The notes under the pieces are model-generated. The model had not been told where the DNA came from. It did no database searches and was given only the letters and a program-made list of their open reading frames with translations. Positions 4,906 through 36,848 of a stretch of 64,000 bases of DNA are shown one piece after another. Both the position numbers and the translations under genes were made by a program. The stretch lies in NCBI RefSeq assembly GCF_004138485.1, contig NZ_RYEV01000003.1:1302001-1366000 (forward strand), in the 5' to 3' direction. Every line of letters begins with the position of its first letter. Positions within the stretch are counted from its first letter, which is position 1. The stretch comes from Peristeroidobacter soli (GTDB taxonomy: Bacteria > Pseudomonadota > Gammaproteobacteria > Steroidobacterales > Steroidobacteraceae).

Positions 4906-5214
4906 GGGCGGAGAGGGCGGATGGATAGCCAGCATGCGATCGGAGGTTGAGTTGCGGGCCGAAGATAGGAGTGGTCGGGGTGAAGGAATTTGTTGTGTTC
5001 CGGCGGTTCCATGGGAGGTCAAAATGAAAGGAAACCGAGCACCGGCCGGCAGTCGCAGCGGAAATCGAACCAGGGAAGAAAGATATATAAATCAGAAGGT
5101 CAATGGTTGTTAGTAGAGCCGGGCTCTTCGAACGTCCGCTGTGCCACCCCGATCAAGACTCCGCGCCAGTTGCGCGTCACTACTCGCCCCACAGACCTTC
5201 CCGTAGAACCATGC
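4906..5214. other. Non-coding gap between McrBC-like pair and toxin-antitoxin pair
   Basis: No gene is convincing here. It contains the first att-like repeat (4972-5031) and a short perfect palindrome AGAGCC-G-GGCTCT near 5114. Short open frames here have no recognisable product. Confidence 0.5.
4972..5031. repeat. att-like direct repeat, copy A (tRNA-Pro 3' end scar)
   Basis: Starts TGGTCGGGGTGA, the same 12 bases as the complement of the tRNA-Pro 3' end (CCA included) at 36772-36783; by eye 18 of the first 21 bases match the tRNA. It continues for 60 bases that match copy B at 23718-23777 with 7 mismatches. The similarity begins exactly at the TGG that complements the CCA end; the bases to the left differ between copies, as expected at an insertion boundary. 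Confidence 0.65.
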
Positions 5215-11800: not shown

Positions 11801-12988
11801 ACCGACCGCGCAGCGGTTCGCGGCCAGGCGATCGACAAATTGCAGCGCTTCACCGATAGCGGCTTGCTCTCGGCCGCGCTGCCTGAGTTGGAGGTGCCGG
11901 ATCGCACGGTGCCGTGGACTATCGATCCCGCTCTGACACTCGCACGCCGCGCCGAGCAAGCACTCGCGCACATCAATGACGATGATGCTCACTGGAGCCG
12001 CATGCAACATCAGATCGGCGAGGCTCTGACGGAACTGTTGCGTTCGCTGAGTGCATTGGGACATCAGGCCAGCTCCGAGCCGAACGACTGGGGCTTCACC
12101 GTGCATATCCAGTATCAAAATCGTCCCGAGCGGCCCGACACGCTGTCGAGCCTGCTGGCGGACGATATCGCGCAGCGAAGCGAGCTGCTCTCGGCCAAGG
12201 AGCGCGAGGTGCTGGAGAACCATCTGCAGGCGGAGATCGCGGCGGAGATTCAGCGGCTGATGCGAGCTGCCGATCAGCAGGTCGGGGCGATCAACGAGGA
12301 ACTGCACAAGCGTCCAACCACGACGGGCGTGCGCTATCGATTGCAATGGCGGGCGCTAGCTGCCGAGGATGGCGCTCCGGCCGGATTGGAAATCGCGCGC
12401 GAGCGGTTGCTGCATACCAGCTCCGATCTATGGTCGGTGGAAGACCGCAAAGTGGTTGGCACGATGTTGCAACAACAGATCGCCGCCGAGCGCGCCAGGG
12501 CCGATGCCGAAACCAGCGGCGTCGGCGGCAGCCTCATCGATCAATTGGCCCGTGCCTTGGACTATCGCCGCTGGCACCGCTTTCGCGTGCAGCGGCATCA
12601 GGATGGCCAATGGCGCAAATTGTCGGGCCCGGCCTCCAGCGGCGAGCGTGCGCTCGGCTTGACCGTGCCGTTGTTCGCTGCCATCGCCAGTTTCTATGGC
12701 CGGGGCGGCAGCCCGTTGGCGCCAAGGCTGATGCTGCTCGATGAAGCGTTCGCCGGCATCGACGACTCGGCTCGCGCCCACTGCATGGGATTGATCCGTG
12801 AGTTCGATCTCGACTTCGTGATCACGAGCGAGCGCGAATGGGCGTGCTACGCGGAGTTGCCTGGCGTGTCGATCTGTCAGTTGCAGCGGCGCGAAGGGGT
12901 GGACGCAGTCTTCGTTTCCCGCTGGACGTGGGACGGCCGTGCCAAGCGGCCCGAGCGAGATCCCGATCGGCGATTTCCAGCCCCATGA
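8816..12988 (+). CDS. jetC: Wadjet type III SMC-like ATPase JetC (TIGR02680)
   Basis: A 1390-residue SMC/Rad50-like ATPase, the loop-extruding motor of Wadjet. The start is ATG 8816 in the ATGA overlap with jetB; the frame runs open 400 bases further back but only across jetB. Walker A GNNGTGKSK lies near residues 52-60. A long Glu/Ala/Arg-rich coiled coil fills about 230-1130, interrupted near 620-700 by a globular hinge-like segment. The C-terminal head has the signature SSGERALG near 1274 and Walker B LMLLDEAFAGIDD near 1304. All ATPase motifs look intact, so the motor should be active. It overlaps jetD by four bases. Confidence 0.92.
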   Translation: MSLGLPMTPVSRPQLPEPMRERWQPLRLGVVEVFHYDSEEFWFHDGHLLLRGNNGTGKSKVLSLTLPFLFDAQLRPSRIEPDGDAGKKMAWNLLMNSYQRRIGYTWIEFGRRLADGSRRYLTLGAGLSAVDGKAQVDSWYFILDGGESQAGVRIGQDLWLTNAQRVVLTRERLRECIENPGWGQVFPLGGQYRRAVDERLFHLGSKRYDALMDTLIQLRQPQLSKKPDEAGLSQALSDALPPMPSELLTDVAQALNQLEEDRNRLEELRQLERAIRQFEQRYRIYAGMLTRRQARELRQAQTGFDNASEERNAAQAGLQGAQQAETAGAAAHEQARQTFATARERLETLQSDPANQDANRLNQAKKDATDAAVAATSAAKQCEEARQKLTREEERSRASSERADHARAELIMAREQCSGEAEAAGTLTSFESNRLATSLPDELAMLSRSELSAAAGELSQAGAQRRQDIKHLEQRHATADRKLSALESLQVTQRERQAEREEALEKRAQADALAEQAASKLVEAWVAHIATLTQLRLDESQVTPQLTAWSARPEGLNPANAALGAAYQQTSLDHARRESALATEQTTQQQRRMELIAERDQLTAGHDAFPPIPATRAPGVREAREGAPFWQLVDFQSHVEPAERAGIEAALEACGLLDAWLAPHGTLIAADGTALLDSHWMRRSAAVTTSLASVLCPAVPEGAGIDAAFIAALLSSVTYGNNDVMSAESWIAGNGRYRLGTLAGAWQKNEAVYIGHTARAQARKRRLAEIARLIDELDSVAADIERRTAELHADRQRSQYELDTAPSDVILREAVLVAASAGQEVARVHQRLEQIESQCRTAEDELQAAREVLLQDATDLQLPSERAALALIGDALDRFNIRHQHLLTAAREWHAAHPEHVAQREREIEARDALEQADSARAEAVERREKALARFETLRSAVGQRVEILQQQLTTAGTAVRSAEADLEKRRQFLKEAGEQRAIASARAAVAETTLTDRAAVRGQAIDKLQRFTDSGLLSAALPELEVPDRTVPWTIDPALTLARRAEQALAHINDDDAHWSRMQHQIGEALTELLRSLSALGHQASSEPNDWGFTVHIQYQNRPERPDTLSSLLADDIAQRSELLSAKEREVLENHLQAEIAAEIQRLMRAADQQVGAINEELHKRPTTTGVRYRLQWRALAAEDGAPAGLEIARERLLHTSSDLWSVEDRKVVGTMLQQQIAAERARADAETSGVGGSLIDQLARALDYRRWHRFRVQRHQDGQWRKLSGPASSGERALGLTVPLFAAIASFYGRGGSPLAPRLMLLDEAFAGIDDSARAHCMGLIREFDLDFVITSEREWACYAELPGVSICQLQRREGVDAVFVSRWTWDGRAKRPERDPDRRFPAP

Positions 12989-15021: not shown

Positions 15022-15211
15022 TATCTTCGCGACCTGGATCAATGAATTGCAGCGATGAAGCAGGTTGAATCCCAGGCTTCCGAGAGCCGGGGCCAAACGG
15101 GACATGGCAGGCGCGAAGACACACATTTCCAATTTCTCGCACTTGGCTGTTCACGACGAACAGCTGGCAGGGTTGGGGGCGCTCGCAGAACACTACTTTC
15201 CGGCGGATCCC
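15022..15211 (+). repeat. 190-bp duplicated leader plus HsdR N-terminal codons, copy 1
   Basis: Aligns without gaps to 16763-16952: 82 bases of leader, then the first 36 codons of an HsdR-like gene. Divergence is moderate, so the duplication is not recent. Similarity stops in both copies at nearly the same codon (after ...YFPADP). Confidence 0.75.
15104..15211 (+). pseudogene. Truncated N-terminus of a type I restriction HsdR-like gene, copy 1
   Basis: From ATG 15104 the translation contains THISNFSHLAVHDEQL and LGALAEHYFPADP, the characteristic extreme N-terminus of one HsdR/DEAD-box restriction subunit family. After codon 36 the frame runs into foreign sequence and stops at 15247. The following sequence in another frame belongs to a GmrSD-like protein, so a recombination joint lies at about 15211-15213. 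It is non-functional as HsdR. Confidence 0.7.
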
Positions 15212-16266: not shown

Positions 16267-16301
16267 TGGTCGGGGTGACCCGATATGTCGTGTACCGGGT
16301 A
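16267..16301. repeat. att-like repeat, copy C
   Basis: TGGTCGGGGTGA is identical to the tRNA-Pro 3' end complement and to copies A and B; 18 of the first 21 bases match the tRNA. The following bases keep parts of the A/B extension (GAT, TCGTGT, CCGG). To the left, the sequence cgccagaacgcaacagattg resembles the sequence left of tRNA-Pro (cgccacagaatgcgacgatt), suggesting the same kind of element end. Confidence 0.55.
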
Positions 16302-16762: not shown

Positions 16763-16952
16763 TATCTTTGCGACTCGGATCAATGAATTAGAACGAGAAG
16801 GTGGATTGACTCATCAGGCTCCCGGAGCCTGAGCCAAGCGGGACATGGTGGCAGCGAAGACGCACATTTCCAACTTTTCGCACCTGGCTGTTCGCGACGA
16901 ACAGCTGGTGCGTTTGGGCGCGCTCGCGGAGCACTACTTTCCGGCCGATCCG
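16763..16952 (+). repeat. 190-bp duplicated leader plus HsdR N-terminal codons, copy 2
   Basis: Gap-free match to 15022-15211. This copy ends about 65 bases before the hsdM start, so its leader may carry the promoter now used by the type I operon. Confidence 0.75.
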
Positions 16953-19184: not shown

Positions 19185-20387
19185 ATGGGCAAGACGCTGA
19201 CTGACATTGCCCAGCAGCTGAAAGACGCCAACAAGAAGGTGCAGCTGATCTACGCCTTCAACGGCATGGGCAAGACGCGCCTGTCGCGGGAATTCAAGCA
19301 ACTGATAGCGCCCAAAGCCAATGGCGGCGAAGGGAATGAAGAAGCCGATACGTCCGAGTTATCACGCAACAAGATTCTCTATTACAACGCCTTCACCGAA
19401 GACCTGTTCTATTGGGATAACGATCTGGAAGAAGACGTTGAGCCCAAGCTCAGAATTCAGCCCAACACCTTCACGGACTGGGTGCTAAAGGATCAAGGTC
19501 AGGACAGAAACGTCATCACGACTTTTCAGCGATACACGCACGACAAGCTTACGCCTCGCTTTAATGAGGAGTACAAAATCAAAGGAGCTGACGATAAGGA
19601 AGTCACCATCAAAGCCTTCTCGGAAGTTACTTTCACGATGGAGCGCGGCGATGCTACACCTTCGGGAATTCTGAAACTTTCAAAAGGCGAACAAAGCAAC
19701 TTCATCTGGAGTCTCTTCTACACATTGCTCGAACTGGTGATTGATGTTCTCAACGTGGCCGAACCCCGGAATCGTGAATCCCGCGAATTCGATGAGTTGG
19801 AATATGTGTTCATCGACGACCCGGTCAGCTCATTGGACGAAAACCATTTGATTCAACTTGCGGTCGATCTCGCACAGCTGGTCAAGTCAAGCGATTCCGA
19901 GATCAAATTTGTTATCACAACGCACAACCCGCTCTTCTATAACGTCCTGCACAACGAATTCGATAGAGACGACGGAAATTACAAGAAGAAGGGCTTCAAT
20001 AAGTACCGGATGACTAAGCTCGATGATGGTAGCCATGAGCTGATCAACCAGCCCAATGACTCGCCTTTTTCATACCACCTGTTTCTAAAATCAGAGCTAG
20101 AGAAAGCTATCGAGAGTGGCCAGCTGAGCAAGTATCATTTCAACTTCTTGAGGAATATTCTGGAAAAGACCTCAACTTTTCTTGGCTATAAGAAGTGGGG
20201 AGATCTGTTACCGAGAACCGAAGATGGACGCACGAATTCGTATGAGGCTCGTATCATCAATATCTCCAGTCACTCGAAGCACGCCGGTGAAGAAGTGGCA
20301 GACCTCACGGAAGATGACAAACGTGTTTTGCGTTACCTGGTAAATGAGATTAGCACCACGTATCGCTTTCGGCAGTCCGAGAGTTAG
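19185..20387 (+). CDS. prrC: PrrC-like anticodon nuclease
   Basis: A 400-residue protein between hsdS and hsdR, the same place prrC occupies in the E. coli prr locus. The N-terminal two thirds form an ABC-type NTPase: P-loop AFNGMGKT (residues 24-31), signature LSKGEQ (165-170), Walker [13 protein letters not shown] (207-218). The C-terminal part has RNILE (R323, E327) and a later SSHSKH (H363/H366), which fit the Arg-Glu-His triad of the PrrC/RloC tRNA nuclease domain. PrrC stays silent while bound to the type IC complex and cuts a tRNA anticodon loop when a phage inhibitor disables the enzyme. Context and motifs support this; the tRNA target is unknown. Confidence 0.8.
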
Positions 20388-23531: not shown

Positions 23532-23729
23532 CGGCTGCACAAGCGGATCGCTCGCGGCATCAATGCAAAGGGCGATGTGATCGAAGCCGCGAAGGCCCGG
23601 GACATCCTGCGGCAGCTACTTGGTGAGATCCGCGTCAACGTGGATGCGGCGGGCGTATGGGCAGAATTCGAAGCACGGCCGGAAAAAACCTGCTGGCGAA
23701 TCATGCGAATACAAGTATGGTCGGGGTGA
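23532..23729 (+). pseudogene. C-terminal remnant of a serine recombinase
   Basis: A 66-codon open stretch without a start, containing VIEAAKARDILRQLLGEIRV followed by VWAEFEARP. This spacing (helix, LxxLxGxIRV, short acidic strand) is typical of the C-terminus of large serine recombinases. Its stop TGA is part of the att-like core of copy B, the arrangement seen where such a recombinase gene ends at its own attachment site. The remainder of the gene is gone, replaced by hsdR. Assigned by eye from pattern only. Confidence 0.5.
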
Positions 23730-23777
23730 GGGGATTTCTCGTGTTCCGGCGGTGCCATGGGAAGTCCAAATGAAAGG
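23718..23777. repeat. att-like direct repeat, copy B
   Basis: Begins TGGTCGGGGTGA like copies A and C and the tRNA-Pro 3' end complement, with 18 of the first 21 bases matching the tRNA. The whole 60 bases match copy A with 7 substitutions. It marks the boundary between the type I RM cassette and the Druantia-like cassette. Confidence 0.65.
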
Positions 23778-24652: not shown

Positions 24653-25585
24653 GTGCCGGTTGTATTTCGATCGATGGCGGGAGTTGAAGGCGACACGCTG
24701 GATCAAGTCCGCGGTGTCCTCAACGCGTTGGCAAATCGCGGCGACACCTTCTTTAATCCCACCTCCACGTTGTCCATCCGCGTTGGACTGGAACGGCGCA
24801 ATCGGACGATCGCGCCCTCGGACCCACTTCACCTACTCCATGCGATTGGTGACGTTCAAAGACTCCCTGGTGGCTACTGGCTACCTGTCCCAACGTCCTT
24901 GGTTCCAATCGGCGATTTGGCCGTTGTGCTGTCAGGGGCGCCGACGTCTCATGTTGAGAGGCATTTCGGACTACCTGTGCACTCACGTGGGTTTTCACGC
25001 GTGTTATCGCGTCTACCTGACTCAACTCCTGGCTTAGGAATGAGATCGCTGCAAGCCTGGTCAGGTGCACCCTTCAACACAGGCGACTGGACGCGAACGT
25101 TCGTTAAAGAGGCGACGTATTCGCGACAAATCCCTAACAACGATTTTGAGTGCTTCAATCACTGGTCGCGAAAGGCGTCGACGCGATGGATTGCCACAGA
25201 GCAACGCGGGACGATTCCTGATGGTGTTGTTCTGACCCGAACGCGGACACCAGTCGGGTCGCTCTTTGCGCTCACACGCTTTGATGAGGGGCAGCCTGTC
25301 TCACTTGCTGAGTTCAGCAACGAACGACGCATCTCAACTCGCCTCGCGCTCGGCTTACGTGCGCTTCACGACAACCCTGCTCGCTTTCGCCTGTCGCTCG
25401 CGTCCGACGATGAGTGCGTGGTTATAGTGACGCGATATCTGCCACCAGAAGAAACAATGGTTCTGCACGCCCTCGGCAGGGTGCGCGACGTTACTCAACA
25501 CTCACTTGCGGTGTCACTCGACAGGGCATTAGTGGATCCAGCGGTGCAGGTGTTGAGCGCACTCGGCCTCAAACAGGACGAATGA
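24653..25585 (+). CDS. Unknown protein, first gene of the Druantia-like operon (DruD-position candidate)
   Basis: A 310-residue protein from GTG 24653, with a good purine-rich ribosome site 8-19 bases upstream. I do not recognise a domain. It is soluble with no signal peptide, membrane segment or obvious catalytic motif. It has a middle part rich in Arg/Trp (SLQAWSGAPFNTGDWTR) and a C-terminal part with a compact alpha/beta look (CVVIVTRYLPPEETMVLHAL). Its stop is one base before the helicase start, so the two are co-translated. By size and position it could correspond to DruD, which precedes DruE in Druantia type I; that is an inference from layout, not from similarity I can see. Confidence 0.75.
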   Translation: MPVVFRSMAGVEGDTLDQVRGVLNALANRGDTFFNPTSTLSIRVGLERRNRTIAPSDPLHLLHAIGDVQRLPGGYWLPVPTSLVPIGDLAVVLSGAPTSHVERHFGLPVHSRGFSRVLSRLPDSTPGLGMRSLQAWSGAPFNTGDWTRTFVKEATYSRQIPNNDFECFNHWSRKASTRWIATEQRGTIPDGVVLTRTRTPVGSLFALTRFDEGQPVSLAEFSNERRISTRLALGLRALHDNPARFRLSLASDDECVVIVTRYLPPEETMVLHALGRVRDVTQHSLAVSLDRALVDPAVQVLSALGLKQDE

Positions 25586-25586
25586 T

Positions 25587-28500
25587 ATGTCCGCGCACAC
25601 GTACACCATCGATAACATTACACGCGAGCTGCCAGGGACGCTTCAACAATATCTGGAAGCGCAATATCACATCTGGGATGAAGACCTGGTCAAAGAGCGC
25701 CAGCGGCTGCTTTCGGAGAGAGGCACCATTTTCCAGGAACCATACATCGAGGCGACTCCGAGCTATGTGGCAGGCCAATCGTACTCCCAGCTAAAGCTTC
25801 CGCCGTCCGTCACGAAACTGCTAACGGATGCCTCGAAAAAAGTGGGGGACGTCTCGACCGGTATTCCGTCGACTCCATATGCTCATCAAGCGAAAGCCCT
25901 CGACGCTTTCTTCAACAAGAAGAATGAACTCGTCGTTTCGACGGGTACCGGCTCAGGTAAGACCGAAAGCTTCTTGATGCCGGTGATTGGAAGTCTCGCG
26001 CTCGAGCGAGAGCTTCGGCCTTCCAGCTACGCGATGCCAGGGGTTCGAGCGTTGCTGCTCTATCCGATGAATGCACTCGTCAATGATCAGATGGCGCGTT
26101 TGCGGCGTCTGCTCGGTGCCCCTCATGTGCAAACACTTCTCCAACGATCTGACGGCGCGCGCGCTCGTTTCGGCATGTATACGAGCCGTACACCTTATCC
26201 AGGACCACCTGATTTGCGCCGCACGCGCAAAGAGGTCGGTAGATGGCTCGATAACTTCCAACGAGAGTACTCGTCGCAGAGAGCGCGCTTGCTTGCGGAG
26301 GGGAAGTGGCCGGCGAAGGACTTGGATCAATTTCGCAAGACCTTTCAAACGGCTTCGACCGACGTTGAACTATTGACTCGGCACGAAATGCAATGTCGAC
26401 CCCCGGATGTTCTGGTTACGAACTATTCGATGCTGGAGTACATGCTGCTGCGGCCTGTGGACGCCGATATTTTCGATCAGACCGTGCAGTGGCTGGCGGA
26501 TCCTCGCAACGAATTCATCGTCGTACTGGACGAGGCGCATCTCTACCAAGGCGCACAGGGTACGGAAGTGTCGCTTCTCCTGAGGCGGCTGATCAGCAGG
26601 CTTCGCATTCCACGTCACCGTGTTCGCTTCATTCTCACCAGCGCCAGCTTGGCAGAAGGACCTCGTGCGCACGAGATTATTCGTGACTTCGCCTCGCGGC
26701 TGACCGGATCGACCGACGACGGTGCCTCATTCGAAATCATCACGAGTCAGTTGGACAAGCCCAATGGCGACATCTCTGTTTCGATCGCTGAGGTAGATGC
26801 ATTCAAGGCTGTTGATCCGACCGATTTGTACCGGTCTCATATTTCGCTCGACCCAGCCATCGCTGCACTCAAGCGGATCGCAGCAGCCTCGACGCAATCC
26901 ACTCTGTCACGCGTAACGACGCAAAGCGAACTACGAAGCGAGTACTTCGCAGTGTTATCCGAGTCTCCGGCCTATCGCCGTCTTGCAAGTGCCGTCATGG
27001 GTAAGCCAATGGCGCACGTCGTGTTGGCGTCACACGTGTTTGGAAAGCATCCAGGGGCGATCGGCGCGCTCGATGGGTTGCTCGCGGCCGCGGCATTCGC
27101 ACAGAGGATCGCCGACGAAAAAATCTTGCTTCCGTCACGCGTTCACATGCTCTTTCGGGGTCTCGAGGGCGTGTTCGCGTGCATCAACAGCGATTGCACG
27201 CAACGCGTCGACACGTCTAAGCCTACGCGACTCGGACGCCTTTATGCCGAACCTCGACTCCAGTGTGAATGTGGCGGCCGCGTATACGAACTGCTCACGC
27301 ACCGAGATTGTGGCGCCGCGTTCTTGCGCGGCTATTGCCGCCCGTCGGACGAGTCCTTCCTGTGGCATGAGCCAAGCACCGGGTTAGTTGACCCCACGCG
27401 GGTGCTTACTGAGCTACATCTTTCGGTTGAGACAGACCGTCATCAAAGTCGACAACCTGGCAACCAGGTGTGGTTGCACATCCCCACTGGGCGACTCGAT
27501 CTTAATCAACCCGCATCGACACAGGATTTCCGTGAACTCATTCGGCCGGGCAACGGAGCGGTGTCCATCGGTGGTCGCAGCGTGATCACGTTCGATCGCG
27601 AATGCCCAGTCTGTCTCGGCAGATGGCGCGACGCCGACCGTCCCAAGATCATGGATCTCGTAACGAAGGGCGAAGATCCATTCGCTCATCTGATCGCTAC
27701 ACAAGTCCGGCTTCAGCCCGCCACGCTCCCTCTTACAGCGAAAATGAAAAACGGTGGGAGAAAATCTTTGTTGTTTTCCGACGGGCGTCAAAAGGCAGCC
27801 AGACTCGCCCGAGACGTGCCGCGTGTTCTGGACCGTGATGCATTCCGACAATGCCTGCTGTTTGCCGCAACGGAACTGCAGACGATCAAAGGTGAAGCGC
27901 GATTGGCAGACAATTTCATTTACATCGCCTTTCTAGCGGCATGCAACAGGCTGAACGTAAGTTTCTTCGACGGGATGGACTTGAACCTGCTCGCGCGCGA
28001 CGTCGCAGACTTGCAGCGAATGTTCAATGGCGACTTGCGTTTGGCATTCGGCGATGAGCATACAGCAACGCCCCCGCCTCGCTTTCGTGTGGAAATACTT
28101 CGAACGCTCGGCAGTCGTTACTACTCGCTATTTGCACTGGGGTTAGGATACGTCGCGCCGCGAAGGACAAAGCGCGACGAGCTCATTCGTACTCTAACCC
28201 CACTCGGTCTAAGTCCTGAAGACGTTGACGCGATTTCCATCGTATGGATTAACGATCTCCTTAACGACATGTCGCTGTATACGCCTGCTGCAGCAGGTCG
28301 ACAGATTCGCAACCTAGCCGGCGATGGTTATATTAAGGAGATAGGTTCGAAGACCGGCTTCACGCGCGCACAGAAGGCCCGCCTACGGCGCGACTGGAGC
28401 GTTGACCCGGCTCGGTTGGAAACAGAGCTCTGTGGTGTGATGACGATCAACACAGGTGGCGCTCGCTTCTCACTCGCCGAACACTCATTGCAGCTCATCC

Positions 28501-30818
28501 CCGCCTTAAAGCACGGCTGGCATCGATGCCAGAAATGTATGTTTTTGTCGCCAGCGCTATGGCGTCGCGAGTGCCCGTCCTGTGGTGCAGCCGATGTTCT
28601 CGCGGTGCCGGTCGGTGGGGATGTGTACTTGCGTGCGCGAAAAGATTTCTGGCGAGTGCCGGTAGAGAAGGTGTTGGAAGGCACCTCAACACCGCTGACT
28701 TTAACGGTGGAAGAACACACCGCTCAACTCGGTCATCGCGATGTTGAGGACGTGGAGTCCACGACGGAATCGTACGAGCGACGATTCAGGGATATTTTGA
28801 TCAACGATGAATCGTCAATCGATGTGCTCAGCTGCACGACGACTATGGAGGTGGGCGTCGACATTGGGTCGCTGATTGCGGTTGGTCTGCGCAACATGCC
28901 GCCTTCTCGACACAACTATCAACAGCGAGCGGGCCGAGCGGGTAGGCGAGGAAGCGCAGTTTCAACGGTTTTGACCTACGCCCAAAACAATCCTCATGAC
29001 GCTCACCTCTATGCACATCCGGTCGAGCTCATCGCCGGCGCGCCGCATGTGCGCGGCCTAGACATTCACAACCCGAGCTTGGTCGAGCGGCATGTCTTCG
29101 CTGAACTGATCCAGGAATTCTTTCGGTCTACATCTCAAGCGCTGCGCGACAACAACGTCTTTGCGTCGCTCGGGCCTACTAACAGTTTCTACACCACCGC
29201 GGGCGACGGATCGTTCGTCAAATTTCGCGAGTGGCTTGATGGCCCCGACGGCGATGCGGCCATAGGCCGCATCGACGCTTGGATTCCGAAACAATCGGGT
29301 TTGGACGGGCGCGAATGTGCGCAGACTCTCGTCGCCAGACTAGAGGCCCGTCGGCTTGAAGCGAGCGGACCTTTGCCCACAGATGAGGAACAACTTATCG
29401 AGTTTCTCTTCTCTCGGAGCTTGTTGCCGTCGTACGCTTTTCCTCGAGATTTGATTGCACTGGAACTGCCTGCGAATCCTCGAAAACTTCGGCCGCAACA
29501 GGGTGCCGCGATCGCGCTATCAGAGTATGCGCCGGGACGTACAGTCGTTGTTGACAAGCGCACATATCGCGTAGGCGCGGTCACGTCCGCGTCGCTAGCC
29601 GACTTGAACGATCGAGCGCGTGCACTGTTCAACTCCCCCCGTCCGTACCTTCAATGCGCCAACTGTTTGTACACGGAAGAACCGAATCGTCATCCGGCTG
29701 GGACTGCATGTCCTGTCTGTGCTGTCGGCAACCTCGACCTAATTACTGTCATTCAGCCCGAACTCGTATGGCCCGAGAGAGGGCGTGAAGTTGATGAACT
29801 CGATGACGACCAAACATTCACCGATACAACGTTAGCCCAGCTCCCGGTGCCCTCGAGCGACGCAGCCTTTGATCGGGGCCACCGGTTTAGCGATCAAGCG
29901 ATCACCAAGTTCGGCCGCGATGTCCCCCTCGTGGTCGTGAACCGCGGGGAGGTTGTTAACGGAATACCGACCGGCTTCGTCGTTTGCGAACGATGTGGAC
30001 ACGTTGCACTGAACGGTGTGCCATTTCCGCCCTCGCACGAGCGTCACTATCCTCCGGCGCCCGGGATCCTCTCTCGGCAGTGCACTGGGTCCCCGCGGAC
30101 TGTCTATCTGGGATACGAGTTTCGCACGGATGTGTTCCTGCTAAACGGACAGCTCACAACCCCGTTTGTTAATGATGTTCAAGACCGGGAGTCGATGCCG
30201 GCACTGCGTGCCGCTTGCCTGTCGTTGGCGCAAGCAATCGCCACGACGTCCGCCGACGAGCTAGGAATTGATCCGCGTGAATTGCAGCCGGGCTTCAGAC
30301 TGATGCCAGGCGAGGACAATAAAGCTCTCGTGGATCTATATACCTATGACACGACGCGTGGTGGCGCAGGGTACTCGAAGTTGGTGGGCGAGAACTTTTC
30401 TTCATTCTTCGATGAGACACTTCATCGTCTGGGAAGCTGTACCTGCGATACTTCTTGCTCGAAGTGTTTGCGTACATATCAAAATCGTTTCGATCATGCC
30501 ACTCTTGATCGTCGCCTTGCGATACGGCTTGGGCGCTATCTCTCGATGGGCGAAGTGGCGCCAATTGAGCCGCTCGATATTCAACGAGAACAGCTCAGCT
30601 CCCTTTCGAAAATGCTGTCACTTGATCACTGGACGATCGCCAAGAACCCCGTCATGGCAGCGCAAGTATCGAAGAACGGCAAAGTCATAGATCTTTCGAT
30701 AAGACCGTCCCTTCGCGATCGACAAGCAGACCCTCCTTCCTTCGCCGCCTGTGTCGTACTCAGTGAGTACGAGCTGCAGAAGGATCTTCCCTCGTGTCTG
30801 TTGAAGGTAGGGACCTGA
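25587..30818 (+). CDS. druE: DruE-like large DEAD/DEAH helicase with DUF1998
   Basis: A 1743-residue superfamily 2 helicase. The PYAHQAKAL Q-motif is followed by Walker A STGTGSGKTES (near residue 118), DEAH in VVLDEAHLYQ (near 314) and ILTSAS. A Cys-rich insert (CECGGRVY) precedes the second RecA lobe with TTMEVGVDIG and QRAGRAGRRG (near 1112). A second zinc site (CPSCGA) is near 1000. The C-terminus is DUF1998: DTTRGGAGY and the Cys cluster CTCDTSCSKC (about 1570-1640). DruE is the only known enzyme-like motor of Druantia and is found in all its types. The DUF4338 protein next door favours DruE over DISARM or Dpd helicases. Confidence 0.85.
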   Translation: MSAHTYTIDNITRELPGTLQQYLEAQYHIWDEDLVKERQRLLSERGTIFQEPYIEATPSYVAGQSYSQLKLPPSVTKLLTDASKKVGDVSTGIPSTPYAHQAKALDAFFNKKNELVVSTGTGSGKTESFLMPVIGSLALERELRPSSYAMPGVRALLLYPMNALVNDQMARLRRLLGAPHVQTLLQRSDGARARFGMYTSRTPYPGPPDLRRTRKEVGRWLDNFQREYSSQRARLLAEGKWPAKDLDQFRKTFQTASTDVELLTRHEMQCRPPDVLVTNYSMLEYMLLRPVDADIFDQTVQWLADPRNEFIVVLDEAHLYQGAQGTEVSLLLRRLISRLRIPRHRVRFILTSASLAEGPRAHEIIRDFASRLTGSTDDGASFEIITSQLDKPNGDISVSIAEVDAFKAVDPTDLYRSHISLDPAIAALKRIAAASTQSTLSRVTTQSELRSEYFAVLSESPAYRRLASAVMGKPMAHVVLASHVFGKHPGAIGALDGLLAAAAFAQRIADEKILLPSRVHMLFRGLEGVFACINSDCTQRVDTSKPTRLGRLYAEPRLQCECGGRVYELLTHRDCGAAFLRGYCRPSDESFLWHEPSTGLVDPTRVLTELHLSVETDRHQSRQPGNQVWLHIPTGRLDLNQPASTQDFRELIRPGNGAVSIGGRSVITFDRECPVCLGRWRDADRPKIMDLVTKGEDPFAHLIATQVRLQPATLPLTAKMKNGGRKSLLFSDGRQKAARLARDVPRVLDRDAFRQCLLFAATELQTIKGEARLADNFIYIAFLAACNRLNVSFFDGMDLNLLARDVADLQRMFNGDLRLAFGDEHTATPPPRFRVEILRTLGSRYYSLFALGLGYVAPRRTKRDELIRTLTPLGLSPEDVDAISIVWINDLLNDMSLYTPAAAGRQIRNLAGDGYIKEIGSKTGFTRAQKARLRRDWSVDPARLETELCGVMTINTGGARFSLAEHSLQLIPALKHGWHRCQKCMFLSPALWRRECPSCGAADVLAVPVGGDVYLRARKDFWRVPVEKVLEGTSTPLTLTVEEHTAQLGHRDVEDVESTTESYERRFRDILINDESSIDVLSCTTTMEVGVDIGSLIAVGLRNMPPSRHNYQQRAGRAGRRGSAVSTVLTYAQNNPHDAHLYAHPVELIAGAPHVRGLDIHNPSLVERHVFAELIQEFFRSTSQALRDNNVFASLGPTNSFYTTAGDGSFVKFREWLDGPDGDAAIGRIDAWIPKQSGLDGRECAQTLVARLEARRLEASGPLPTDEEQLIEFLFSRSLLPSYAFPRDLIALELPANPRKLRPQQGAAIALSEYAPGRTVVVDKRTYRVGAVTSASLADLNDRARALFNSPRPYLQCANCLYTEEPNRHPAGTACPVCAVGNLDLITVIQPELVWPERGREVDELDDDQTFTDTTLAQLPVPSSDAAFDRGHRFSDQAITKFGRDVPLVVVNRGEVVNGIPTGFVVCERCGHVALNGVPFPPSHERHYPPAPGILSRQCTGSPRTVYLGYEFRTDVFLLNGQLTTPFVNDVQDRESMPALRAACLSLAQAIATTSADELGIDPRELQPGFRLMPGEDNKALVDLYTYDTTRGGAGYSKLVGENFSSFFDETLHRLGSCTCDTSCSKCLRTYQNRFDHATLDRRLAIRLGRYLSMGEVAPIEPLDIQREQLSSLSKMLSLDHWTIAKNPVMAAQVSKNGKVIDLSIRPSLRDRQADPPSFAACVVLSEYELQKDLPSCLLKVGT

Positions 30819-30822
30819 CTGC

Positions 30823-32016
30823 ATGCCTGTAATTAAGCTTGCAACACGAGAAGCACTGTTGCGAAGACGCGTTCGCGCGCACCTGCACGAACTGGGCTTT
30901 ACGAAGAATGCGAACGGGACCTTGGTTCCGCCTAGCTTGAACAAAGAAGGTTATCGCGATCTACACATGCCTCAGCGCGAGGAACGCCTTGAGAGCGAAG
31001 CAGCCTTCCTAGAGGCTCATGGAAGCTCGCTGATCGATAACTTCGCGTACGGTGGAACGATTGACGTAAACCGTATGCAGATCCGATTGGAGCTCATCGA
31101 CAGCGGCACATGGCAGTCCAACCTTTTCAGGTTCGCGACACTGCTATGGAGTATTCCCGTCTCCTATGGTTTTGGGCGGCGAATGCGATACCTCGTGTGG
31201 GACGACTACACCGAAAAATTAGTCGGCTTGTTCGCTCTCGGCGACCCCGTGTTTAATCTTCGCGCGCGAGATCGGCTGATCGGATGGAGTTCGGACGACC
31301 GCGGGGAGCGGTTGGTTCATATCATGGATGGCTATGTGGTTGGCGCCGTGCCGCCGTTCAATCGATTGCTTGGTGGGAAGCTCATCGCAAGCCTAATGCG
31401 TACTCGAGAAGTGGTCGACACCTTTCGCCAGCGCTACGGATCGTCCGAGGGCATCATTAGTGGAAATGCCAAGAATGCTCACCTCGTCGCCATCACAACA
31501 ACGTCAGCTCTCGGCAAGTCGTCCGTTTACAACCGGCTCAAATTGAATGGGGTCGAATACCTATCGAGCATCGGCGTAACGGATGGCTACGGCCATTTTC
31601 ACTTTCCGCGTGAACTCTTTGAGGAAATGCGGGCTTATCTGGGAGCGAAGAAGGACCCTTACGCAAACAATCATCAGTACGGGGACGGGCCGAACTGGCG
31701 ACTTCGTACGATTCGCCGTGCATTGACGCTGCTCGACATGGATCCTGACCTTGTGCGTCACGGATTAGCACGTGAAGTGTTCTTCGGTCACGTCGCAGAC
31801 AATGCGTTCGACGTTCTTCGTGGGAAGCGAAAACATCCAAAGTATGATTCGCTTTTGACCGCCGCGGAGGTAGCGACGCAAAGCATCGAACGATGGATGA
31901 AGCCAAGAGCGATGCGGGACTCTAGCTTCAGCAAGATAACGCATGCCGATATCTTGAATCAGATCCACTCGTCGATGTCGGTCATCCCCGGTCCGGTGCT
32001 CCATAATCGTGGATAG
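30823..32016 (+). CDS. druA: DruA-like DUF4338 protein
   Basis: A 397-residue protein of the DUF4338 family, the marker of Druantia type I (DruA). Visible family features are RYLVWDDYTEKLVGLFAL, RDRLIGWSSDDR near residue 149, a PPFNRLLGGKLIASL segment, and TTTSALGKSSVYNRLK near 230, followed by GYGHFHFP. It starts 4 bases after the helicase gene and overlaps the next gene by 8 bases. The biochemical role of DUF4338 is not established. In described Druantia type I loci druA is the first gene; here it follows the helicase. Confidence 0.82.
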   Translation: MPVIKLATREALLRRRVRAHLHELGFTKNANGTLVPPSLNKEGYRDLHMPQREERLESEAAFLEAHGSSLIDNFAYGGTIDVNRMQIRLELIDSGTWQSNLFRFATLLWSIPVSYGFGRRMRYLVWDDYTEKLVGLFALGDPVFNLRARDRLIGWSSDDRGERLVHIMDGYVVGAVPPFNRLLGGKLIASLMRTREVVDTFRQRYGSSEGIISGNAKNAHLVAITTTSALGKSSVYNRLKLNGVEYLSSIGVTDGYGHFHFPRELFEEMRAYLGAKKDPYANNHQYGDGPNWRLRTIRRALTLLDMDPDLVRHGLAREVFFGHVADNAFDVLRGKRKHPKYDSLLTAAEVATQSIERWMKPRAMRDSSFSKITHADILNQIHSSMSVIPGPVLHNRG

Positions 32017-33553
32017 AGCAAGAGACGCTGCGACAGGCGAGTTGGTGTGGGCATCGGACGCCCTCGCTCGGCGTCCTTATAGGTGTCCGAACTGTGGGCA
32101 ACGCGTGAGTGTGCGTGAGCCGAGATCTTCCTTTCGCGCGCGTCACTTCGCACACGCAATCGGAGTCGCTGATCAAGACTGCGAACTCTATTTTCCCCCG
32201 AGTTTTCGTTATTCTGGGCGCGCAGCGGCGTACGAACAGTTCAGCGAGGTCGATCGCCTACATCATGATCACCTTGAACTGACCGTTGGTCCGCACGGCC
32301 CCTTGTTGGCGCTTTGTTTGCCGCCGGCAGGAAAAGGGGGGTGGACGGGAAGCATCCAGTTCTCCGCGCAGCGAGTTTCTAGGCAGCTCAGATGGCATCA
32401 CCTTCAGCGCGGACAACGAATCGAGTTTCCGCTATTCGACGGTAGATGGTCGCTAACCCCAAACGGCGTTGTGGCGCTTGAGTATCTCGAAAGCGTGCAA
32501 CTCGGAGATCAGTCGCTTGAAGCCGGCGCGAACCTCTTCTATGTCGAGCGTGCACTCGGACGCCGTGTGCTTCCAGCAGAGAGCATCTCGTGCGGCGAGT
32601 CTGTCCGCTGGCTCAGTCGGCAGCCATTTCAGTTGCCGAATGAACTACGAAACGCTATCGCCGTTGAGTGCGAGTATCAAGCTAATGGATGGACTCTGAA
32701 TCGGCTCGCGATCCCATCGCAGCTTTCGGGTGTTCAGTTGCGTTTGCTCACAGAATGGATTCAGCGGCGCGTTGCTGAGCAGCGTGTGCGTGTGTGGGTC
32801 GAATCACCGTGCGCCGATGCATATACCGCCCAGGGCGCCCCAATCTACCCACGAAACTCGATACTCAGAATTCGATCAGATCGCACAGTTGACTTTAAAC
32901 TTCGGAATGTCGACACCTCTCGCGTTTTGCACGAGGCCGTCTCTGCTACCGAATGTGTTCTTGAAGCGAATGAAGAGGGGCACATTGAAGTCCTCGTTAA
33001 CGATCACCACTCGGACTTCATTTACATAGGTTCTGCTGGAACCCCTATTAATGCACTGGTGAGATTTGCGGGCGCGGAGCCCGCCGACATTTCTTGTGCG
33101 CAGCAGTCGCTCGACGCCGTCATATCTTCGGGACGAGATCGCTGTCCGATCCTCGTCACTGTGGGTTACGGTGTAGTGGCCGAACTCCTGTCGGCTGCTC
33201 GTCTTAACGTCGAATCAGATGATCGCGTGATACGGACCGAACTGCGTCCAGGGTCTTACATACGCTTTGACAAATTGGGCGAAGTGAGTTGGCCATCGCC
33301 CACGCCTGCTGTTGTCGAGGATGCGTTGTCAATTGACAGAGAGTGCCAGGTCGAAGCGCCGCGACTTCAAGAGAAGATTCGATGGCTGCGTTCGCTGGCA
33401 GGGCATCCTGCCGCGACGTCTATCCGCTTACGGCTTCCTACGGCTCTGGCTCGTCGGGAGCCTTTCGCGTCACTCGCGACGCTGTCCTGGCCGGTGAGAT
33501 GGGCACCGCATGTAAGACTGTTCCAACGTGACCTGGAGAACCTCTATCCATGA
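32009..33553 (+). CDS. CoiA-like zinc-ribbon protein of the Druantia-like operon (DruB-position candidate)
   Basis: A 514-residue protein from GTG 32009 inside the end of druA. The N-terminus carries a CoiA-like zinc site: C26 and C29 in RCPNCGQR, HFAH at 46-49, and C58. The remaining ~450 residues are mainly beta-rich with no motif I recognise. CoiA-type ribbons occur at the N-terminus of several DNA-processing proteins. By position directly after DruA and by length it may be the DruB equivalent, which is inference. It ends in an ATGA overlap with the next gene, so the operon continues. Confidence 0.75.
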   Translation: MDRARDAATGELVWASDALARRPYRCPNCGQRVSVREPRSSFRARHFAHAIGVADQDCELYFPPSFRYSGRAAAYEQFSEVDRLHHDHLELTVGPHGPLLALCLPPAGKGGWTGSIQFSAQRVSRQLRWHHLQRGQRIEFPLFDGRWSLTPNGVVALEYLESVQLGDQSLEAGANLFYVERALGRRVLPAESISCGESVRWLSRQPFQLPNELRNAIAVECEYQANGWTLNRLAIPSQLSGVQLRLLTEWIQRRVAEQRVRVWVESPCADAYTAQGAPIYPRNSILRIRSDRTVDFKLRNVDTSRVLHEAVSATECVLEANEEGHIEVLVNDHHSDFIYIGSAGTPINALVRFAGAEPADISCAQQSLDAVISSGRDRCPILVTVGYGVVAELLSAARLNVESDDRVIRTELRPGSYIRFDKLGEVSWPSPTPAVVEDALSIDRECQVEAPRLQEKIRWLRSLAGHPAATSIRLRLPTALARREPFASLATLSWPVRWAPHVRLFQRDLENLYP

Positions 33554-36006
33554 TTCACGGCATTGATAGGCACCGGTTTCGTTTCCTTCTTCGGTGCGCG
33601 TTGAAGCCCGATCTGGTGAAGTCCTTTCTGAAAGACAACAGGGTTGCGCTGGTTGCCGCAGGGGCGCCACTCGACAACGTTCCTAGCGATCCGCAGGTAA
33701 TGTTGCGAGTAATAGAGGGCTTCACTCAGAAGGCTAATCAGATCTTCGGCAAGTGGCTCTATCAGAAGATCAAGCCTAATGGGGCACAGCCTATCCCGCA
33801 GTTGATTCTTCGGTGGCGAGCAGTGGAGGAACTCGGTGTCGTTTACGACGATGTTGAGAGAACTTCACTCAGTCAGCAAACGCTGTATGACCTGTTCGGA
33901 GCTTCGCCCGATGAATCATTGCTTGCGTTTCTTCGAACGCCAGTTCGTGACCAACCCCAACACCAGCTTGCAATACGCTCAGAGGAATGGCTCACCCTGG
34001 CCACGTCACTCCTCGCGAAAGATCGCGTGGCGGTCGAATCTTCAGGATGGACAGACGCAGTCGTAGAACTTGTTGGCGCAGTTGCGCGGCTGGACGGCTC
34101 ATCGCTCTCGGTGCAGCGACCATATGCGCCGGTGCTTGCCGAGATCCAGGCGGCAATTGAGCTAGCAAGGCCGACAGTCGTAACAACGACACCCGAGTTG
34201 CCGGCGGCTTCGCCTCGCGGCATACAGAGTAGTGGCCCCGAACTCCGCACTTTCGATTCGAAGATTGATTACACAAAATTTTCGGTCATCGCTACCAATC
34301 GCATCCCGCGGACTGTTGACGCGTATTTGCTGGTTGTCGAAGGTTTCGTTGATGAGAACGGGATTGCGTTCCGTTTGGCCGAAGATGATCTGAAGAGGGC
34401 GATCCCAACGATTGGCCGGATCATATTGCATCCAGATCAGTACGACGTCGCCCCCGTGTATGGGGAACCCAATGCCTATGAGGTCGAGCGATTTCCAACC
34501 GAGCGGGAGGCACGAGTCAAAGTCAGTCGCCGTCTCGTCGGTGCGCTGGTTTCTGTTGTTTTGATGCCTCACAGCACTGCAGATGCCCATCGAATCCGAG
34601 ACTACATCGCAGACTACGCAAAGCGACATCTCGGTTCGATGGCCGTCTTTGTCAGTTCCGACAAGAGCTGCCTTATGCCTCGCGTATCGACATTGCAGAA
34701 AGTCCTAGCTCCTGATTTTGACTGGCAACTCGATTTGTGGGACACGATGGACGCGGTCGAGTTACAAAACGGCCCGCATGTCGCGCGGCTCGGCTTGAAA
34801 TCAGCCTCAAAGTCCCTGAACTGTGCGCCGCTCGCGGCCGCGGCCCGAAAGCTCCTTCGCATCTACACAGAGCGCTCACAGGCAAAGTTGTCGAAGACCT
34901 CCAGGGAACTGCTCGTCGAGCTATTTGATGTGGACGATTTGCGGTTTGACGAGGCAACGAAGGTTCGCTTGAAGGCCAACCTCGACGCTATCGCAAGAGG
35001 ATCTGAGGATTTCAACGAGCTCGTGAGTGCGTTACTGCAGACACAAGTCATCAAAGACGAGATCGAGCGACGGATTGCGGCAGAGGTTGACGTAAGAGTC
35101 GCTGAGAGAGACAGAACCAAGCGCGAACTTGAACAGTTGCGGATACAGCGGTCTCAGGTGGAGCGTCGCATCTTGGAACTCAACCGTGAAGCCGAAGAAA
35201 AAGCTGCGGAAGTCCGTTCGGCGGTAAAGCGTGCTTTCGAGCAAGCCCGAGACAATGGCATTGCGACGCTTGCGGACCTTTCACTATTTGACTTCTTCCT
35301 GAATCGCAACGGTAGCGCCGAACGATCGTCCTCCAATGTAGCCATGCCCGCGGTTGTGGAAGCACCCAAGCCGTTCGTCGAAACGCTACCTTCATCAGGC
35401 AAGAATGTTGGGGATGTTTTCCGACGTTTCGGTGTCGAACCGATGTTTTCCGATCGCCTCGGAGCTGTCATACACCTTGCGCATGCAGGCGGATCCCCCA
35501 TTGTCTTGACCGGCGCCGGCGCGTCTACGCTTAGCACTGCCTTGGGCACCGCCCTCAGCAAATCCTCATGCGTGTCCATCACAGTGGAGTTGGGGCAAAT
35601 CGCCGAGCAGCATTTTGAGCATCAGGTAGCGGAGGCGAATGCGGATGTTCTCGTCATGCGACAAGCGAATGTCTCGGACCTATCTTTATATGCTCGTTCG
35701 TTGCTTGATGCGATTGTCCAGAGGATGATGACTCAGAGCGATTCGCCACCATTCGGGATCATATTGGTGGACGCGGGTGGGCCGGCAGCGCTACCGTGGC
35801 CACCAGAGATCCTAGAGTCAGCGATCGGGATCGAGCTAAGTCACGTAGGCTCGAAGTTGAAGCCCGACGCGCTAACAGTCCGTAGGGATGATGGTGGTTG
35901 GTTGCGCCATCGACTACATCTTCACTACGGTAACGTTGTCGATGAGCATCCGGCGCATGCCAGCTCGCTGGAAGACTTCAATCGATTGCTACTTTCGCTC
36001 GAGTAG
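33550..36006 (+). CDS. Large coiled-coil protein with degenerate P-loop-like C-terminus (DruC-position candidate)
   Basis: An 818-residue protein of unknown function, last gene of the operon. The N-terminal ~470 residues are mixed alpha/beta with no known motif. Residues about 500-568 form a strong coiled coil (charged Glu/Arg heptads). The C-terminal ~200 residues read like a RecA-type NTPase that lost its key lysine: VLTGAGASTLSTAL near 650 in place of GxGKST, and a Walker-B-like FGIILVDAGG near 734. It may have become a binding or scaffold domain. Its place after the CoiA-like gene and its size suggest DruC; I see no sequence proof. Confidence 0.75.
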   Translation: MIHGIDRHRFRFLLRCALKPDLVKSFLKDNRVALVAAGAPLDNVPSDPQVMLRVIEGFTQKANQIFGKWLYQKIKPNGAQPIPQLILRWRAVEELGVVYDDVERTSLSQQTLYDLFGASPDESLLAFLRTPVRDQPQHQLAIRSEEWLTLATSLLAKDRVAVESSGWTDAVVELVGAVARLDGSSLSVQRPYAPVLAEIQAAIELARPTVVTTTPELPAASPRGIQSSGPELRTFDSKIDYTKFSVIATNRIPRTVDAYLLVVEGFVDENGIAFRLAEDDLKRAIPTIGRIILHPDQYDVAPVYGEPNAYEVERFPTEREARVKVSRRLVGALVSVVLMPHSTADAHRIRDYIADYAKRHLGSMAVFVSSDKSCLMPRVSTLQKVLAPDFDWQLDLWDTMDAVELQNGPHVARLGLKSASKSLNCAPLAAAARKLLRIYTERSQAKLSKTSRELLVELFDVDDLRFDEATKVRLKANLDAIARGSEDFNELVSALLQTQVIKDEIERRIAAEVDVRVAERDRTKRELEQLRIQRSQVERRILELNREAEEKAAEVRSAVKRAFEQARDNGIATLADLSLFDFFLNRNGSAERSSSNVAMPAVVEAPKPFVETLPSSGKNVGDVFRRFGVEPMFSDRLGAVIHLAHAGGSPIVLTGAGASTLSTALGTALSKSSCVSITVELGQIAEQHFEHQVAEANADVLVMRQANVSDLSLYARSLLDAIVQRMMTQSDSPPFGIILVDAGGPAALPWPPEILESAIGIELSHVGSKLKPDALTVRRDDGGWLRHRLHLHYGNVVDEHPAHASSLEDFNRLLLSLE

Positions 36007-36771
36007 CCATCACTCCTTTGCGCAGAGTGGTTGGATCGGAAGTGCAGTCGAAGAGATGCAACGGATCGAGAGATTTGATCAGCGGACTTAACCCGGCAGA
36101 CTTCGCAGGCGGCTGCAATGCCTTACATGGATGCTTCCAGGCTTTGCCTCCCTTGGCGCTCGATTTGATTCGTCCTTCCTTGGCCGCGCCCGGGTAGCGA
36201 GCAGCCGCCGATGTCGATCGCTGGCATGTTGGCCGGGTGTCTCTTGGTCTATGTTCTCGCTCAAGCCTGAATTCGGTGGGCTATGTGACAGGCGTCTTAC
36301 TGGTCTCACCAATTTGCTTCGTCAGTGCGAGCCTAGCGCGCCCGCGCTGCTTCACGGCTTCCGGATCGAAATCCCGGACGCGCCCGGCTTCGATGTCGCG
36401 CCATCCTAGCTCAAGCGCTTGTCGCAGTTCTTCTTCGGATTGCTCTCTTTGGGTAGGGTGCATTTTCGTTCCGAGTTCGGATGCCTCTCTGTCTTAACAC
36501 CTTCGCATGCATCAACGCTGCGTGGGAAGCGCGCCTGCTGGCTATCAATCAAATGCCATCTGCGTTGAGTGTCAGCGCAGGTTCAAATCGACCGAGGGAT
36601 TTCGCGCTGTACCGGCGTCACTAAGCGTAGCAGCGTCGCGCTACCGATCACTGATGGCTTAGAAATCATAAGAGTGACAACGACATGGGGTGAAAAAGAA
36701 GGCTGTGAGTGCCGTCTCTGTCGCGAGAACTTCGCGACACATCGCCACAGAATGCGACGATTTGCAACAAA
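36007..36771. other. Mostly non-coding right end of the island
   Basis: Between the last Druantia-like gene and tRNA-Pro. It holds one plausible small gene (36281-36463, minus) and nothing else I can support. The last 30 bases before the tRNA resemble the sequence left of att-like copy C. Confidence 0.5.
36281..36463 (-). CDS. Small hypothetical protein, possibly antitoxin-like
   Basis: A 60-residue, highly charged helical peptide (SEEELRQALELGWRDIEAGR, then DPEAVKQRGRARL). The pattern recalls short ParD-type antitoxin tails, but there is no clear ribbon-helix-helix and no toxin gene next to it. It could be a real orphan antitoxin or a chance frame. Confidence 0.35.
   Translation of the reverse strand: MHPTQREQSEEELRQALELGWRDIEAGRVRDFDPEAVKQRGRARLALTKQIGETSKTPVT

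Positions 36772-36848
<77 letters not shown>

Follow-up and report, generated by a model that had tools for sequence, protein, structure and literature searches.

A Druantia type I-like operon with the gene order D-E-A-B-C and a predicted DruC/DruG hybrid protein in Peristeroidobacter soli

Does a change in gene order mark a distinct form of the anti-phage system Druantia? The question is raised by five co-directional genes on the + strand of a 64,000-nucleotide stretch of the Peristeroidobacter soli genome (9.37 Mb; contig NZ_RYEV01000003.1, positions 1,302,001 to 1,366,000; hereafter the window), which an initial annotation, made from the sequence alone, had described as a Druantia-like operon. 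The explanation favoured here, with a probability of about 0.8 for the whole, is a complete anti-phage operon of Druantia type I-like make-up that belongs to a distinct lineage, has the order D-E-A-B-C and would work in the way proposed below. Published statements are cited from excerpts of the respective papers.

Gene identities and operon layout

The tight five-gene operon proposed at 24653-36006 was recovered as such, its open reading frames (ORFs; Table 1) being joined at +1, +4, -8 and -4 bases in that order; operon-like spacing is also found in three loci with the same gene order (L039, L066 and L081) and in the partial locus L064. The gene annotated as DUF4338 is confirmed as druA by Pfam (PF14236, 261 bits, E 1.3e-77) and PADLOC (DruA1, 565.3 bits), and DUF4338 has been assigned to the GNAT fold (PMC10853773). 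The helicase annotated as DEAH/DUF1998 contains the domains DEAD, Helicase_C and MZB above the Pfam cut-offs as well as the DEAH motif, but DUF1998 was not printed by the Pfam copy used. It scores 1701.6 bits with DruE1 versus 664.1 bits with DruE2, shares 35-41% identity with canonical type I rows in a 7-row alignment where TGTGSGKTE and DEAH fall in invariant columns, and has relatives in the PDB (9wae, 9tu7, 6znp (YprA)). None of the five proteins has a nuclease domain by Pfam, nor does DruE show a PLD nuclease; type I DruE has been described with a predicted inactive Vsr nuclease (PMC12458937).

The remaining three proteins are recognised mainly by profiles. A PADLOC profile (DruB1, E 7e-8) covers residues 1-68 only of DruB, which also has a CoiA_N match at E 0.001, under the Pfam cut-off, with C26, C29, H49 and C58 invariant in 37 rows, while DruD and the fifth protein match zero Pfam families. 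Profile-profile comparison (hhalign) of five lineage members with 12 canonical ones pairs DruB (99.7%, E 7e-26, 478 columns), DruD (99.8%, E 5e-30, 277 columns) and DruC (98.9%, E 1e-17) each with its namesake, the six cross-pairs among them reaching probabilities of at most 0.9%. Iterated profiles seeded by the window and by the canonical operon of Pseudomonas putida pKF715A retrieved 70 and 71 members for B (69 shared), 70 and 69 for C (69 shared) and 88 and 88 for D (88 shared), with zero overlap among the window-seeded sets of B, C and D. The order is therefore DruD-DruE-DruA-DruB-DruC, as hhalign and PADLOC together give it, and D-E does stand ahead of A-B-C as initially read; a chance of annotation was rejected as its source because the same order recurs in other loci.

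PADLOC and profile-profile comparison thus support all five assignments, that of DruC for its C-terminal part only. The suggested hidden Markov model search against Druantia profiles found DruD1, DruE1, DruA1 and DruB1 as expected, but for the fifth protein DruG2 outscored DruC1. The initial annotation had counted a match of the 310-, 514- or 818-residue protein to another system against itself; the 818-residue protein partly shows such a match, yet the filing under Druantia stands, because DruG belongs to Druantia type II.

Table 1. Features of the Druantia operon and of the surrounding defence modules (positions in the window).
Feature	Position	Strand	Evidence and remarks
druD, 310 aa, first operon gene	24653-25585	+	GTG start; PADLOC DruD1 E 1e-12
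druE, 1743 aa, YprA-like SF2 helicase with MrfA Zn-binding domain	25587-30818	+	PADLOC DruE1, Pfam
druA, 397 aa, DUF4338/DruA	30823-32016	+	Pfam PF14236, PADLOC DruA1
druB, 514 aa; N-terminal CoiA-like Zn-binding motif, remainder mostly beta	32009-33553	+	GTG start; PADLOC DruB1, hhalign
Predicted druC/G hybrid, 818 aa: DruG-like front, coiled coil ~499-584, putative degenerate AAA+-like end ~609-770	33550-36006	+	
tRNA-Pro (CGG)	36772-36848	-	ARAGORN, Rfam; 3' end faces operon, matches module-boundary repeats
tRNA-Pro end copy, left boundary of Druantia module	23717-23737	+	0 mismatches to 21-position pattern
12-base tRNA-Pro end copy, left boundary of type I restriction-modification module	16267-16278	+	
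12-base tRNA-Pro end copy, left boundary of Wadjet module	4972-4983	+	
AAA_13 (PF13166) protein in type I restriction-modification operon, between hsdS and hsdR	19185-20387		

The fifth protein

In PADLOC the fifth protein of the window matches DruG2 (residues 236-595, E 2.2e-18) better than DruC1 (residues 474-749, E 3.2e-4), and whole-protein matches to DruG2 are found in all five lineage members (E 7.3e-20 in L064, 6.5e-27 in L066, 1.6e-31 in L081 and 3e-45 in L039). Scans of the N-terminal part alone, meant to exclude the coiled coil as the source of this match, returned DruG2 for the first 460-490 residues in 5/5 members (E 1.1e-11 to 1.8e-33; 1.2e-11 for window residues 1-490, where DruC had no match) and DruC1 in 0/5; the first 170 residues of a canonical DruC (L035) returned DruC1 only. 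Beyond position ~614 of the DruG2 profile nothing is matched in the window protein, and the C-terminal part aligns to canonical DruC in the hhalign comparison (residues 610-767 after realignment, 456-766 before). As judged from these alignments, the fifth protein is a hybrid that appears DruG-like before the coiled coil and DruC at its end.

The AlphaFold2 model of this protein (pLDDT 76.2, pTM 0.36) starts with a helical part, continues through a beta-rich region and a coiled coil, and finishes in an alpha/beta end. AAA+ ATPases are among the 50 Foldseek matches shown, with 3.2e-3 as the best E and most probabilities over 0.9, and this match would sit on the end domain, the aligned ranges not being printed. 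A Walker A motif (G-x4-GK[S/T]) occurs in the aligned end stretch of 0 of 42 DruC rows, and its loss is taken as ancestral instead of decay because it is common to 42/42. For Druantia II, there named type IV CoCoNuT, CnuB homologues are described that are inactivated and have long coiled coils (PMC12458937), which fits the putatively dead AAA+-like end of the window protein; a word search of that paper finds no mention of DruC. The DruC end is proposed to be a dead module related to inactivated CnuB.

The DruG2 model PDLC00024 matches 4 of the 42 DruC rows, which equals the number of lineage members in the set, while a second one (PDLC00025) matches one further row (E 9.2e-14), so that DruG-likeness is not limited to the D-E-A-B-C lineage. 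Against Pfam the 42 rows yield no informative family, the 25 models listed being mostly scattered coiled-coil models with 1-4 rows each. Searches with single sequences were unproductive: the 818-residue protein alone found no close relative in genome contigs, and tblastn with it and with the L039 homologue found nothing in plasmids, for which reason, the sequence being too divergent, profiles were used. A search for bona fide DruG gave 0 of 199 genomes and, among 398 genomes, only the window's own; within the family it gave 3 of 217, namely the window, G283 (locus L039) and G1358, where the match position fits L064.

Gene order among related loci

The genes were mapped in 99 stretches, the window plus 98 loci (of which L038 and L079 are one and the same), chosen for the most part by DruE similarity, the scan of genome contigs covering the best 80 of 570 relatives. 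With ~ denoting a gap of at least 300 bases and ' the opposite strand, the arrangements are BCDE with A out of reach (42), ABCDE (14), E alone (7), A~DE (5), DEABC, no E and DE~A' (4 each), CDE and BD~E (3 each), DE, BCDE~A and A~BCDE (2 each), and once each A'BDE, EABC (L064, at a contig start), DEA (L065, at a contig end), CDEAB (L068), D~E, ED'C'B' and A'~DE. The complete DEABC loci are the window, L039, L066 from Pseudoxanthomonas winnipegensis and L081 from Achromobacter pestifer, while L064 and L065 are cut by contig ends. The locus L068 (6895-18589) is from a metagenome-assembled genome of Planctomycetota.

All 23 rows with five genes (22 distinct loci) have them on one strand and in a rotation of A-B-C-D-E: ABCDE or A~BCDE in 16, BCDE~A in 2, CDEAB in 1 and DEABC in 4. 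Four of the five rotations are thus observed, with no other one-strand order. Shifting one block within ABCDE allows 20 different orders, and rotations make up 4 of these. A few independent rotations are therefore suggestive and not proof, and several rows with inverted or missing genes are present. The order that the initial annotation called permuted is hence better described as a rotation, as other rotations exist.

Three of the A~DE loci (L037, L126 and L040), which contain DruA, DruD and DruE, encode large proteins of 955, 926 and 953 aa with no PADLOC family at E 0.001. Their identification as DruG was not borne out; such a large protein may stand in for DruB-DruC.

Phylogeny of the lineage

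In a quick maximum-likelihood tree of 38 DruE rows, some of them partial (L039 and L064) and many differing in composition, the six D-E-A-B-C or cut loci lie on one side of a branch with a Shimodaira-Hasegawa-like approximate likelihood ratio test (SH-aLRT) value of 100, which takes 1 change of order, a number as low in 0/500 shuffles. The lineage adjoins a 16-row group holding most canonical ABCDE loci. The DruC tree also groups the rotated loci (SH-aLRT 100), while the grouping in the DruB tree is weak (SH-aLRT 80) with long branches meeting. In the trees of DruA and DruD the lineage is not one clade (2 changes each), although one clade is not rejected for either (p-AU, approximately unbiased test, 0.294 and 0.473). 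The history of DruE and DruC agrees with gene order, and DruA or DruD may have been exchanged. What the initial annotation offered as a possible distinct subtype is supported as a lineage by DruE and DruC, and the operon is assigned to a distinct lineage of Druantia type I.

Comparison with known Druantia systems

In canonical type I operons, such as that of P. putida pKF715A (L035), homologues of all five genes likewise lie on one strand, and the window DruE and DruA are nearest to type I profiles. The order differs (D-E-A-B-C versus the usual A-B-C-D-E), as do the lengths of DruC (623-729 aa in 12 canonical rows versus 818-855 aa for the hybrid in the lineage) and DruE (1841-1851 aa in four canonical rows versus 1733-1762 aa in four DEABC rows), and DruB and DruD of the lineage are lowly conserved. 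The resemblance to type II (DruM-F-G-E) lies in the fifth protein, whose N-terminal part is matched by DruG2; the window DruE, however, is not of type II, and among the five window proteins PADLOC finds no match to DruM or DruF at E 0.1.

DruE, the core of Druantia, is common to its subtypes, and in Druantia III it is a dimeric helicase-nuclease preferring 3'-tailed DNA, with DruH as the likely sensor (PMC13192584). The helicase core of DruE is what the window operon has in common with type III (DruH-DruE), from which it differs in having a DruE free of the Pfam PLD nuclease; DruH has no PADLOC match among the five window proteins. PADLOC added a Druantia type IV composed of DruE, DruF and DruL (PMC8565338). 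The literature search, which covered the listed part of long result sets from an open-licence library, found no description of the D-E-A-B-C order or of a hybrid DruC.

Proposed mechanism and alternative explanations

The operon is expected to act against phages. Its five proteins would assemble into a complex centred on DruE, a helicase that would load on 3'-tailed single-stranded DNA arising from phage replication, as shown for DruE of Druantia III, and would stall or remodel that DNA. The predicted Zn-binding protein DruB and DruD might help to recognise or hold DNA or act as assembly factors, while the DruC/G hybrid would be a coiled-coil scaffold whose putatively dead ATPase-like end gates assembly. 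The chemical effector would most likely be DruA, a GNAT-type transferase according to its published fold assignment, given that none of the five proteins has a Pfam nuclease domain.

Several results weigh against this picture. DruA is cast as effector on the strength of a published fold statement and of the missing Pfam nuclease, and a divergent nuclease may lie in DruB or DruD, whose profiles matched nothing in the PDB at E 1. The DruB structure model (pLDDT 73.5, pTM 0.46) has 0 PDB fold matches at E <=0.001 and hence no usable fold, and the Foldseek search with the fifth protein likewise has none at this threshold, so that the AAA+ call draws on weaker matches. In L039, DruE is split over two overlapping ORFs and that copy may be damaged.

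The operon could simply be Druantia type I in which a block was swapped neutrally, the differences in order and DruC being functionally meaningless, an account given an appreciable chance, albeit well below even. In favour of it, no component is lacking, DruE and DruA have type I scores far higher than those for other types, and PADLOC itself defines systems by gene presence and not by order (PMC8565338). Such a swap leaves unexplained that, ahead of the coiled coil, the fifth protein resembles DruG and not DruC in 5/5 lineage members, and that the order has been kept across a deep branch. The DruG2 matches, which persist when the coiled coil is left out, could in turn point to a type II-like or mixed type I/II system; this is unlikely, as DruE is of type I by more than a thousand bits, DruM and DruF are missing at the threshold given, the genomes searched, the window's own aside, offered no bona fide DruG for direct comparison, and PDLC00025 also matches another DruC row. 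Decay into an inactive remnant, to which the strong divergence of DruB and DruD and the lack of Walker A might be attributed, is very improbable: the five frames are open and tightly coupled, the helicase motifs are invariant and the Walker A loss is ancestral.

The distinct type I lineage favoured here leads to a more tentative reading, to which slightly less than an even chance is given: the D-E-A-B-C lineage would bridge Druantia I and II, with DruC and DruG scaffolds interchangeable on one helicase core, and the rotation would have come about via a circular or tandemly duplicated intermediate, e.g. an excised module from a tRNA site. Order changes that are rotations only are what passage through such an intermediate would be expected to leave. 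The literature searched gave no description of the mechanism of type I, a widely counted system; a deep lineage keeping the five parts in another order reveals what is conserved among the parts and their contacts, and the putative DruG-like swap in DruC offers a naturally made domain-swap experiment across types I and II. Loci of this kind can be overlooked or misnamed when detection relies on profile coverage, as the partial coverage of DruB by its single PADLOC profile illustrates.

Defence neighbourhood and tRNA-Pro repeats

The operon stands in a row of defence modules that have copies of the end of a tRNA-Pro gene between them. The 12-mer of the tRNA 3' end occurs on the + strand at 4972, 16267, 23718 and 36772, with no more copies at <=1 mismatch and a chance mean of 0.20; the 21-position pattern with <=3 mismatches is found at 8 places genome-wide, 4 of them in the window, while the reversed control gave 0. 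A stretch of 60 bp at 88% is common to the copies at 4972 and 23718. Between the repeats lie Wadjet (JetABCD2) with an ORF carrying a GmrSD-type C-terminal domain, a type I restriction-modification system (HsdM, HsdS, AAA_13 and HsdR) and Druantia, with a McrBC-like pair, named partly by eye, left of 4972. The Wadjet, restriction-modification and GmrSD-type neighbours speak for the favoured explanation. The GmrSD-type ORF and the tRNA-end copy at 16267 lie between the two copies (15022-15210 and 16763-16951) of a 191-bp repeat of 82% identity. The AAA_13 protein is reminiscent of anticodon-nuclease-type add-ons.

Elements resembling cis-mobilizable elements (CIMEs), or tandem tRNA-anchored islands, consist of modules between tRNA-end repeats that have no integrase of their own. 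The plan is the same here, but several defence modules stand in a row and mobility is only putative. Ten integrases (PF00589) are encoded in the genome, the nearest on the same contig ~271 kb away, so that no tyrosine integrase of this family lies within that distance of the row; serine recombinases were not searched. The tRNA-Pro stretch was matched in 13 of 14 genomes of the genus. In the 6 relatives with a fetched flank, similarity starts at 36770-36772, none being found leftward at the threshold used, and no empty site was found; two of the six hold an extra repeat copy left of the tRNA (exact in L160, one mismatch in L157). The row suggests how such operons are gathered.

Among the other five lineage loci, a tRNA is near the operon in three (tRNA-Met in L065 and L066, tRNA-Thr in L039). 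In L064, a tyrosine-integrase-like ORF stands directly behind the operon and is followed by a YicC-like ORF (9695-12013; both named by eye), perhaps an autonomous carrier of the lineage.

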